A DNA stretch of 64,000 nucleotides, from NCBI GenBank assembly GCA_016873835.1, contig VGVY01000003.1, positions 1 to 64,000 of the forward strand. Direction: 5' to 3'. Shown here in pieces: positions 19,511-54,362 of the stretch. The position numbers and the translations under genes are program-made. Source of the stretch: Ignavibacteria bacterium (GTDB lineage Bacteria > Bacteroidota > Ignavibacteria > Ignavibacteriales > Melioribacteraceae). The notes under the pieces are model-generated. The model saw only the letters and a program-made list of their open reading frames with translations, ran no database searches and was not told where the DNA came from. Positions within the stretch are counted from its first letter, which is position 1, and each line of letters opens with the position of its first letter.

Positions 19511-19858
19511 TTGATTACTGAATCATCAAAAGGAGAGTTTAGAAGAAGGCTTTATTTTCTTACTCTTAAGCTAATTGAATTTATAGATCAGCTCCCTAAA
19601 GATACAGTATCTCAGAGAATGGGAGATGAATTATTCAATAGCGGTACGAGTGTGATCAGCAATTATATTGAAGCAACTTCAGCGTCCGAAAAAAAGGATA
19701 TGAAAAATTACACTAATTCATCATTGAAGTTTGCTAATGAATGTAAGCTATGGCTTGCACTTGTTAGAGACAGTAAAAGAGCAAAGCCAGAGAAAGTAAA
19801 ATGGTTTTTGGATGAGCTCGATGAAATTTCAAAAATTCTTTCTGAATCCATGAATTGA
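19511..19858 (+). CDS. Four-helix bundle protein (S23/23S rRNA intervening-sequence family)
   Basis: 115 residues from a TTG start with GGAGG just upstream, 10 bases after hldD. The family pattern is plain: RRRLYFLTLKLIEFIDQLPK, then GDELFNSGTSVISNYIEATSA, and the second helix pair NSSLKFANECKLWLAL. Relatives occur inside 23S rRNA intervening sequences and, far more often, as free-standing genes, as here; they form pentameric helical bundles related to diversity-generating-retroelement Avd proteins. Biological role unresolved. Unlike the copy at 53.4 kb it has no flanking inverted repeats and is embedded in an operon. Confidence 0.85.
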   Translation: MITESSKGEFRRRLYFLTLKLIEFIDQLPKDTVSQRMGDELFNSGTSVISNYIEATSASEKKDMKNYTNSSLKFANECKLWLALVRDSKRAKPEKVKWFLDELDEISKILSESMN

Positions 19859-52607: not shown

Positions 52608-53339
52608 ATGAAAGAGAAAAATAATTTAATCATTCCGTTTTCAGTCATAGCTGGATCATTAGTTCTATCTGTAATAATTTTCTCGATGGTTTGGAAATCA
52701 GCAAAAAATGCTGATCAAACTATTACTGTAACCGGTTCAGCCAAAAAAGCAATTGTAAGCGATCTTGGAATTCAGAGAGGAACTCTTCAAGCATCAAGTA
52801 TAGATCGGAGATCAGCATATCAAATAGTTGTTCAGCAGATGCCAATAATAATGAAATATCTTGAATCTCAAGGATTTAAAAAAGAGCAGATTGAAGTGTT
52901 CGCCATTAATGGCTATCCTATTTTTGAATTGAATTCTCAGGGCTATCAAACTCAAAGAGTATTAAGCTATGTTTATAGCCAAAGATTTGAAGTAAGATCA
53001 AATGACGTTCAAAAGATTAAAGAATTGTCGCTGTCATTAAGTTCGCTTGTTGAAAAAGGATTAGATATTAGCGTAGATATGCCAGAATATTTATTCACAA
53101 AGCTTGATGACTTAAAAGTTGAAATACAAGCAGAAGCAGCTAAAAATGCCATGGAACGAGCAGAAAAAATTGCATTGGCGACCGGACGTTCTCTGGGTCC
53201 ATTACGTACAGCACGAATGGGTGTAATACAAATTACTCCTCTCAACTCTACTATGATTTCCGATTATGGATTAAATGATGTTTCATCAATTGATAAGGAG
53301 ATTACCGCCGTAGTTTCGGCATCGTTTGAAATCAACTAG
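52608..53339 (+). CDS. SIMPL-domain (DUF541) membrane-anchored protein
   Basis: 243 residues. One N-terminal membrane segment (about 8-29) anchors a periplasmic SIMPL/DUF541 domain (about 35-240): ITVTGSAKKAIVSDLGIQRG, QKIKELSLSLSSLVEKGLDI and AAKNAMERAEKIALATGRSLG, the helix before the final strand. SIMPL proteins (BP26, YggE) form ring or barrel oligomers in the periplasm and have unclear stress roles. Single gene; preceded by a 200-base interval with no other gene. Confidence 0.9.
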   Translation: MKEKNNLIIPFSVIAGSLVLSVIIFSMVWKSAKNADQTITVTGSAKKAIVSDLGIQRGTLQASSIDRRSAYQIVVQQMPIIMKYLESQGFKKEQIEVFAINGYPIFELNSQGYQTQRVLSYVYSQRFEVRSNDVQKIKELSLSLSSLVEKGLDISVDMPEYLFTKLDDLKVEIQAEAAKNAMERAEKIALATGRSLGPLRTARMGVIQITPLNSTMISDYGLNDVSSIDKEITAVVSASFEIN

Positions 53340-53370
53340 TTTTTAGAGATTAAACCAAATTAAGAACTAC

Positions 53371-53394
53371 AAATTTCGAAGTACGAGTTACGAT
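53371..53394. repeat. Left inverted repeat flanking the four-helix-bundle gene
   Basis: The 24-mer that starts AAATTTCGAAGTACGAG and ends TTACGAT is the inverse of 53798-53820 with one mismatch and two single-base gaps. Nearby, TACGAGTTAC (53382) is echoed by TACGAGTTGC (53410), and AAGAACT (53362) faces AGTTCTT (53401), so this leader is densely palindromic. Confidence 0.7.
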
Positions 53395-53441
53395 ATTTAA
53401 AGTTCTTATTACGAGTTGCAAATTCAAATTGAATGTTAAAT

Positions 53442-53804
53442 ATGAAAACAAATTTAATCGATAGAACTAAGAAATTTTCGCTGGATGTTATTTCTTTTGT
53501 TAATAAAATAGAAAAAAACAATACAAATAAAATATTATCATCTCAATTAGTAAGAGCGGCGACTTCAATTGGAGCAAATTATAGGGCTGCTCTTCGAGCA
53601 AAATCAAAAGCTGATTTTATTTATAAAATCAAAATTGTTGAAGAAGAAGCAGACGAAACGATTTATTGGTTAGAATTAATCAAGGAGACAAATATGATAT
53701 TGAACGCAAATATTGACTTTATTTTACAAGAAGCAAATGAATTAACAGCAATTTTCTCCCAAATTTCAATTACAAGTAAAATTAATAAAAAATTTAAATC
53801 GTAA
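53442..53804 (+). CDS. Four-helix bundle protein (S23 family) bounded by inverted repeats
   Basis: 120 residues from the ATG at 53442 (one at 53433 adds three). Family blocks: LIDRTKKFSLDVISFVNKIE, LSSQLVRAATSIGANYRAAL, KSKADFIYKIKIVEEEADET then IYWLELIKE. It is free-standing, not in an rRNA gene. Inverted repeats flank it and the right one overlaps the stop codon, so gene and repeats look like one unit inserted between the SIMPL gene and the rimP operon. Role unknown. It is only distantly similar to the 19.5 kb copy. Confidence 0.85.
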   Translation: MKTNLIDRTKKFSLDVISFVNKIEKNNTNKILSSQLVRAATSIGANYRAALRAKSKADFIYKIKIVEEEADETIYWLELIKETNMILNANIDFILQEANELTAIFSQISITSKINKKFKS

Positions 53805-53820
53805 TTCGACTTTCGAAATT
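53798..53820. repeat. Right inverted repeat flanking the four-helix-bundle gene
   Basis: ATCGTAATTCGACTTTCGAA and the next three bases (ATT) mirror 53371-53394. The arm begins inside the last sense codons and covers the TAA at 53802-53804. Confidence 0.7.
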
Positions 53821-53882
53821 AGTACCTCCATAAAGACTGTTTGCAAATTCCATTAATTATAGCTAAGTTTGTTCATTCATTT

Positions 53883-53904
53883 TCGCCCCTCGAGGGCGAT
53901 TTTT
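53883..53904 (+). terminator. Hairpin with T-run just upstream of rimP
   Basis: TCGCCC (53883-53888) / GGGCGA (53894-53899), loop CTCGA, then TTTTT after A/T. It lies 12 bases before the rimP ATG. It may end upstream transcription or attenuate the rimP-nusA operon. Confidence 0.7.
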
Positions 53905-53915
53905 GTTTATAGAAT

Positions 53916-54362
53916 ATGGAAAAAGCTCAAATATTTGCAAAATTCGAAGAAATTGTTGCATCGCTCGGTTGTCTTCTCATTGACTTACAATTTCGGGGTG
54001 ATGACCGGTTTCGAATTGTTGAAGTCTACATCGATAATGAAAAAGGAATTACTACTGATGATTGTTCTGCAGTTAGTAGAGCTTTAAATGAAGTCATTCA
54101 GTTAGAAAATTTGATTGATTCAAATTTTCGATTGGATGTGTCTTCTCCTGGAGTTGATAGACCGCTTAAATATTTGGTTCAGTATACAAAACATATTAAT
54201 CGAAAATTAGAAATTGAATTCACAAAAGATTTAGAAACCAAAAAGATTATTGGAAAACTTGTTCGAGTAGAAGGCGAAGATATTTTTCTTCAAGAAAAAC
54301 AAAACGAGTATAAAATAAATTTCAAAAATGTAATTAAAGCAAAAGTACAAATTAGCTTTTGA
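53916..54362 (+). CDS. rimP: Ribosome maturation factor RimP
   Basis: 148 residues. The two-domain RimP plan is seen: the N-terminal alpha/beta part with GCLLIDLQFRGDDRFRIVEVYI and the hallmark DDCSAVSRALNEVI, then RLDVSSPGVDRPLK, and a small SH3-like C-terminal barrel (IIGKLVRVEGEDIFL). It assists 30S assembly. It opens the cluster leading to nusA and infB, as in most bacteria; nusA starts 16 bases after its stop. Confidence 0.95.
   Translation: MEKAQIFAKFEEIVASLGCLLIDLQFRGDDRFRIVEVYIDNEKGITTDDCSAVSRALNEVIQLENLIDSNFRLDVSSPGVDRPLKYLVQYTKHINRKLEIEFTKDLETKKIIGKLVRVEGEDIFLQEKQNEYKINFKNVIKAKVQISF

Follow-up and report, generated by a model that had tools for sequence, protein, structure and literature searches.

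Inverted repeats around S23-family genes: a probable class of small mobile units, examined from one gene of an Ignavibacteria genome

Introduction

An S23-family gene that lies between a SIMPL gene and rimP in an Ignavibacteria genome is enclosed by a pair of inverted repeats, and the same repeat-gene-repeat architecture recurs around S23 genes of many bacterial groups, in units that as a class are very probably mobile. For the class, units occupy sites where near-identical plasmids have none, one unit recurs at different sites, and there are derivatives that have lost the open reading frame (ORF); for the copy in the Ignavibacteria genome, there are the arms themselves and relatives in which the surrounding genes occur without it. 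Taken as a combined statement, mechanism included, it is on balance probable that a small mobile element carries the S23 gene as its only cargo.

The spread of 23S rRNA intervening sequences (IVSs) and the role of S23 proteins are questions that are decades old, and the S23 family consists of tiny genes known mainly from rRNA insertions. The units described here give a way to study that spread. Since they are free-standing, come with exact empty sites and occur in culturable cyanobacteria, both questions can be put to the test in ordinary strains. The units also offer an origin for the heptamer arrays of Xanthomonas, cyanobacteria and Beggiatoaceae, for which the available portions of the reports on them name no mover. 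Finally, arms that tend to keep pairing as their sequence turns over make an unusual case of concerted change.

The unit in the window

The window is the whole 64,000-nt stretch that was analysed (contig VGVY01000003.1, positions 1 to 64,000), and the features discussed here are collected in Table 1. The arms form an inverted repeat of 27 nt, 81% complementary and spaced 403 nt apart; when gaps are allowed they reach 53368-53411 and 53783-53824, with a score of 21.0. None of 5000 dinucleotide shuffles scored as high (maximum 18.5), nor did any of 624 other similarly spaced pairs across the window (maximum 14.0). The initial annotation had described repeats of 23-24 nt around an S23-family gene, the right one passing through the stop codon. 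Inverted repeats around the gene are confirmed, and the TAA stop codon does fall within the right arm; only the length needs correction, to 27 nt or more. Inside the leader, which the initial annotation had called densely palindromic, no inverted repeat of at least 12 nt was listed beyond the arm pair, and the gapped left arm extends inwards over part of it. When the RNA of the unit is folded in silico, the arms pair and their stem closes the whole gene (z of -2.39, with an equally good fold in 1 of 100 shuffles).

Table 1. Features at and around the S23 unit of the window
Feature	Position	Strand	Remarks
SIMPL gene (PF04402), upstream neighbour	52608..53339	+	adjoins rimP in four relatives without the S23 gene
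Whole unit (left arm, S23/IVP gene, right arm)	53368..53824	+	457 nt
Left arm, ungapped core	53368..53394	+	27 nt, 81% complementary to right arm
S23 / 23S rRNA-intervening-sequence-protein gene	53433..53804	+	123 aa; PF05635, TIGR02436
Right arm, ungapped core	53798..53824	+	runs through stop codon 53802-53804
rimP, downstream neighbour	53916..54362	+	

The encoded protein matches PF05635 with 63 bits (cut-off 33.8) and TIGR02436 with 85 bits (cut-off 24); an alternative ATG start is possible at 53442. The closest solved structure by sequence is 2rld (E of 8e-16), a relation that suggests a four-helix bundle, and a homopentamer, for the window protein. One near-invariant glutamate, present in 136 of 139 proteins, is an alanine here (A49), and since other conserved residues are lost as well, the gene may be decaying. 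The window also holds a second S23-like gene, at 19559-19843 (PF05635, 47.9 bits), whose flanks score 8.5 and show no inverted arms, perhaps a copy that has been domesticated or stripped.

The same architecture at other S23 loci

There are seven PF05635 matches in the host genome. Among the six loci that were tested, the arm scores were 28.5, 21.0 (the window unit), 17.0 and 13.0 above the threshold, and 11.5 and 8.5 below it. It had been proposed that the unit should be sought elsewhere in this genome: its architecture is present at three of the five other tested S23 loci, and the repeats are different each time, so that the four above-threshold loci all differ in repeat sequence.

S23 matches occur in 53 of 57 genomes, the host included. 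In the host and its relatives, inverted arms exceeded the 99th shuffle percentile at 76 of 112 loci, as against 81 of 2240 pairs (3.6%) made from mismatched loci and 13 of 112 loci in direct orientation. The named loci, drawn from many groups, behaved alike: 53 of 76 were above their own 99th percentile, compared with 282 of 5700 mismatched pairs (4.9%) and 8 of 76 in direct orientation. At a common threshold of 12.5, the counts are 76 of 112 and 48 of 76, or 124 of 188 in total, the remaining 64 of 188 falling short of it. The pairing of the arms is specific to their own locus. The 48 named loci include members of the Bacteroidetes, Verrucomicrobiales, Clostridia, Omnitrophota, Deltaproteobacteria, Nitrospirae, Gemmatimonadetes, Phycisphaerales, Acidobacteriales, KSB1 and Betaproteobacteria. 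Across the 124 above-threshold units the median length is 465.5 nt, and at 39 of them the stop codon lies within the right arm or is overlapped by it.

These numbers refer to 112 tested loci out of 116 collected from the host and relatives (L007 and loci with short flanks were left out) and to 76 out of 80 in the named set (again without short-flank loci); L028 and L162 are one locus taken from two sources. The loci of the relatives are a non-random sample, made up of the best matches listed plus 80 further places, with the weaker listed matches, and some that have internal stops, omitted. At one named locus, in Clostridia bacterium RGIG5713 (L195), the arms hold an additional conserved inverted piece, GGGCGGGACACCCGCACCCGAT, on the side that faces the gene.

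Heptads and concerted change in the arms

The arms are typically built of tandem heptads. In the flanks of S23 genes of the host and relatives, autocorrelation at lags 7, 14 and 21 was 0.382, 0.370 and 0.346 near the gene versus 0.268, 0.265 and 0.285 far from it, and the peaks at these lags were sharp in both the relatives and the named set. G exceeds C in the left arm at 110 of 124 loci. The heptads of the left arm have a weak consensus, TNAGNNN, with an information content of 2.06 compared with at most 1.64 in five permuted controls. The window copy itself shows no significant 7-nt periodicity (best lag-7 score 5.0, 95th shuffle percentile 8.5). We also considered that heptads might be a general trait of mobile genes in these genomes. 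This was rejected, since 20 loci of Y1 transposases (PF01797), one from the host and the rest from relatives, had no lag-7 signal (0.2775), many of them having REP-type hairpins in their flanks instead; heptads accompany S23 and not mobile genes at large.

Gene-less arrays are also found. With a strict threshold, a search of 458 kb of the host genome gave three arrays, each with a period of 7 and none with a partner; with a laxer threshold, arrays of other periods are as many or more. Unpartnered heptad arrays of the host at L310 (13096-13126), L311 (8534-8565) and L323 (1362-1387) resemble, by eye, the arms of another S23 locus, L002. In four loci of relatives (L242-L244 and L247), long inverted REP-type hairpins with scores of up to 65 flank Y1 transposase genes, which suggests a RAYT/REP-like system beside the S23 units.

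Syntenic S23 loci common to different species form 17 groups with 50 loci. Arms of the same unit pair with a mean score of 14.86 (n=50), and arms swapped between species with 11.67 (n=130; Wilcoxon p of 2.9e-4); against its best swapped partner, the own arm wins at 28 of the 50 loci, ties at 4 and loses at 18. In the units between what appear by eye to be nuoC and nuoD, the heptads differ between genera. Because own arms outpair swapped ones, the pairing tends to persist during the turnover of sequence, and it tends to be kept either by selection or by copying between the arms. A tight, long-term bond between an S23 protein and one heptad sequence was rejected, since arms become more alike only for pairs of proteins that are more than about 60% identical. 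As this link holds only among close pairs, it does not follow that S23 specifically recognises the whole heptad.

Evidence of movement

All eight S23 loci on named cyanobacterial plasmids have inverted-arm scores of at least 17; two of them (L327 and L328) are near-duplicates, which leaves seven that are independent. The units sit between gene pairs such as cas6 and cas4 or two ribonucleotide reductase subunits. On plasmid pPg_01 of Pseudanabaena galeata (L329), the S23 gene between cas6 and cas4 is bordered on each side by very long arrays of heptads that run for the most part in direct orientation. Plasmid C of Trichormus variabilis carries a unit at a site that is empty in three near-identical plasmids, the insertion being 428 nt including a 5-nt duplication, GTAAT. 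Three more plasmid sites could be compared in occupied and empty form, less cleanly, owing to replaced target sequence (two of the three) or lower identity. At two of the four compared sites, heptad remnants are present in another plasmid: a left array with the start of a broken S23 gene (L344), and a hairpin without S23, as judged by eye (L347). The number of heptads varies between plasmid copies.

The Trichormus unit or its arms are matched at 101 places, which are spread over 39 plasmid records. In six of the records at least 80% of the unit is covered; many other matches span about 150-200 bp, and the S23 gene was absent in the five of these that were read. In Nostoc N6, a related ORF-less heptad element is inserted in an S23 gene, whose uninterrupted version lies in a near-identical plasmid region of Nostoc C052. 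This insertion has no target duplication (at most 1 nt) and lies directly before GATAA, a motif seen by eye at the same place in three of five other ORF-less copies.

A second line of evidence comes from two Desulfobacterota genomes (Deltaproteobacteria, Desulfobacterales), here called G057 and G058, where one S23 unit is found at different sites with 92% identity that ends at the ends of the arms. The shared unit gives 48 BLAST hits in G058, a number in which a single copy can count twice and which includes some heptad ends of other short elements. From these, 17 full or partial copies were extracted. Nine have a common internal deletion, bounded by 12-nt direct repeats of the ORF, which could have arisen more than once; others have different deletions, and one consists of the arms only. 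The ORF-less copies coexist in G058 with an intact S23 unit. Nine additional S23 loci of these two genomes were tested, and eight of them have inverted arms scoring above 12.5, of various sequences.

Most of the scored copies are flanked by an 8-nt target duplication: nine of 13 match at 7 or 8 of the 8 positions, as against a mean of 3.25 and a maximum of 8 of 13 in the controls, and the summed score of 89 exceeds those of all 5000 mispaired controls (maximum 82). For each copy the best of 16 offset pairs was taken, and the controls were handled alike. Fourteen copies were tried and 13 scored (C5 is without a right end), 12 from G058 and one, L198, from G057; C379, C44, C531 and C526 stood outside this test. 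Target duplications are thus not uniform over the class, being 8 nt in the Desulfobacterota, 5 nt in Trichormus and none, or at most 1 nt, in Nostoc.

We also looked for a bigger transposon in G058 that might own these ends. A search of 20 stretches with the end motif gave no larger element with the same ends, and neither did 14 end-only hits, whose context, viewed by eye, showed other short heptad hairpins; the search is not exhaustive, as 40 of 62 first-look candidates were scored. G058 also contains other families of short elements, which are made from inverted TTAGCNN-like heptads (L287, L290-L292, L294, L298 and L299), some of them apparently nested in another short repeated element with different ends.

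The site in the host genome and its relatives

Among 30 rimP loci compared in the host genome and relatives, SIMPL adjoins rimP in five, and only in the host does an S23 gene lie between them. The initial annotation had proposed looking for relatives with an empty site, and these were indeed found: the gene is missing in four of four relatives with SIMPL beside rimP, and in two of them (G006 and G018) there is no heptad signal at the site either. The two relatives of the same genus (G001 and G002) have significant ORF-less heptad arrays there, of a sequence unlike the window arms, and because of these arrays the interval is not clean inside the genus. Either the unit was gained in the genus and the ORF then lost in two species, or the interval is a repeated target.

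The window copy itself shows the inverted repeats and the site that is empty in relatives, two traits expected of a transposable element or MITE; the other two, a target duplication and copies at several sites, were not seen, as no duplication lies directly beside the unit and its left flank has no further match in the host genome. The proposal of a small mobile unit is borne out for the class; a recent movement of this copy, with its single left flank and no duplication, finds no support, and neither does the passive mode of mobilisation that the initial annotation suggested. It may be an old, single, possibly decaying and quiet member of a mobile class; it is also possible that the single copy is fixed and useful.

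Just before rimP, at 53882-53908, a short hairpin (CGCCC...GGGCG) leads into a T-rich stretch (TTTTTRTTT). By eye, the hairpin and the T-rich stretch are present in 14 of 14 rimP upstream regions, from the host and 13 relatives, and they look like a conserved leader or a terminator-like element of the rimP operon.

How the units may move

The reading that we prefer, tentatively and at somewhat less than even odds, is a division of labour in which the S23 protein recognises the ends and an enzyme acts in trans. A unit would consist of a left arm, typically of G-rich tandem heptads, the S23/IVP ORF, and a right arm that is the inverted copy of the left. The arms would fold as a hairpin or cruciform to be recognised by the S23 protein, and cutting and joining would fall to a trans-acting enzyme that the unit does not encode. 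Heptad arrays would change fast, perhaps via slippage, with both arms changing together. As units age, they would lose the ORF and leave their arrays behind. The IVSs would then be units whose insertion site was an rRNA helix, the stem being removed from the transcript by RNase III. It was held at the outset that repeats occurring independently of the gene would tell against a mobile unit. Such repeats do occur in the class, as solo arrays and ORF-less elements, and they look like non-autonomous derivatives or remnants; since a mobile element would leave remnants of this kind, they do not count against mobility.

One dedicated integrase is argued against by the different target duplications of different lineages. 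Three movers are entertained, namely S23 itself, other DNA transposases, and reverse transcription. A reverse transcriptase as a required partner was rejected, as 30 of 53 S23-containing genomes, the host among them, have no match to RVT_1.

The S23 protein could itself carry out the movement, as a minimal transposition protein that has no known catalytic domain, and the units would then be autonomous. They are too short for another sizeable gene, and S23 lies inside them in many groups; the intact S23 unit beside the ORF-less copies of G058 is consistent with this as well. Five residues of the window protein, Q35, R38, S42, N46 and E72, are kept in 133-139 of 139 proteins and might form an active site, but invariant residues may equally be structural, and the window protein is without the near-invariant glutamate. 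The two solved relatives that were found are both deposited as uncharacterized proteins, and one of them is a ring of four-helix bundles with no known function, according to the available text of PMC4990558. Together with target duplications that vary by lineage, these points make S23 an unlikely enzyme.

Alternatively, other DNA transposases, such as the Y1/HUH enzymes associated with REP sequences, may move the units as passive riders, with S23 irrelevant to the movement. The numbers of S23 and Y1 (PF01797) genes are correlated over 57 genomes (rho of 0.51, p of 5e-5), also after genome size is taken into account (0.46, p of 3e-4), and the placement of the Nostoc element and its relatives before GATAA, with no duplication, is reminiscent of Y1 target use. 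Against this stand the 8-nt duplications of fixed length in the Desulfobacterota, which do not fit Y1 chemistry, and four of 53 S23-containing genomes that have no Y1 match. The Y1 loci are flanked by REP-type hairpins at many places and by heptads at none of the 20, and passive riding gives no reason why S23 should so regularly be paired with heptad arms. We regard it as improbable.

An RNA route, by target-primed reverse transcription in trans with S23 acting like the related accessory protein of diversity-generating retroelements, appears to us more improbable still. Its appeal lies in S23-like proteins of Faecalibacterium phages that are annotated as the retroelement protein Avd (E of about 1e-6), and in the RNA stem that the arms are predicted to form. 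Variable heptad numbers, non-uniform target duplications and replaced target stretches recall such chemistry, and reverse transcriptase matches (1 and 4) are present in the two genomes in which the unit is shared at 92% identity. On the other side, besides the many S23-containing genomes without RVT_1, the numbers of S23 and reverse transcriptase genes are uncorrelated (rho of 0.02), duplications are fixed in length within one family, and the S23 profile matched no Avd structure in a search of PDB sequences.

That the units are not mobile at all, the arms being a processing or regulatory hairpin around a vertically inherited gene, would agree with the 17 syntenic groups and with the window copy, which bears no trace of recent movement, but is contradicted for the class by the exact empty sites on plasmids and the multi-copy derivatives, and is very improbable.

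A bolder reading is that S23/IVP proteins are the core of widespread, unrecognised single-gene mobile elements that end in inverted heptad arrays, that S23 itself, for all its want of a known catalytic domain, directs or performs their movement, and that the IVSs and many dispersed arrays are their products. In this full form we consider the statement possible and rather doubtful.

Comparison with known systems

The nearest relatives in content are the IVSs themselves. The available portion of PMC4990558 describes a 428-nt element in the 23S rRNA of Coxiella burnetii with an S23 ORF, terminal inverted repeats that form a 28-bp stem, and tandem heptamers, GACAGAT, upstream of the ORF in a number that varies between strains; its authors relay the hypothesis that the element is a remnant of transposition or that the ORF has a role in mobility. 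The same text reports a homopentameric ring of four-helix bundles for an S23 protein of Xanthomonas. The IVS and the window unit are alike in that an S23 ORF lies within complementary termini that form a stem, a predicted one in the window; they differ in that an IVS sits in an rRNA helix and is excised from the transcript by RNase III, whereas the window unit lies between protein genes. As for the heptamers, such heptads are strong in the class of S23 units and not significant in the window copy. S23 units inside 23S rRNA were rejected for the collected loci, none being convincing with crude motifs: a scan of 217 loci with three 23S motifs, one mismatch allowed, gave a single hit that was judged to be chance.

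Heptameric tandem repeats are known from Xanthomonas and Nostoc, many of them intergenic, and one Xanthomonas genome has 70 cases of two heptamer arrays close together and inverted (available portion of PMC4692102); the TAACTGA repeats of Beggiatoaceae are likewise 7-nt tandem arrays (available portion of PMC4679880). S23 or helix-bundle terms occur 0 times in the main texts of these two papers. Literature that links free-standing S23 genes to heptad arms was not recognised in the material searched, mostly titles and openings of abstracts, with few subscription journals.

Diversity-generating retroelements, the home of Avd, are not a fit for the host, whose genome has no RVT_1 match. MITEs resemble the S23 units in their terminal inverted repeats, target duplications and many ORF-less copies; they differ in their parent, since no parent transposon with a transposase is present in the stretches examined and the parent here carries S23. 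The window does not hold a Y1 gene flanked by REP palindromes, as in the REPIN/RAYT system; the flanked gene is S23. According to the available portion of PMC3116915, RAYTs are Y1 transposases with palindromic repeats, in contrast to the S23 units, which have no known catalytic domain and heptad arrays that are specific to each locus. What the two share are short inverted repeats that form hairpins, a single flanked gene, and dispersed gene-less copies, and by analogy, as far as that portion describes them, REPINs are the closest counterpart of the S23 units in design.
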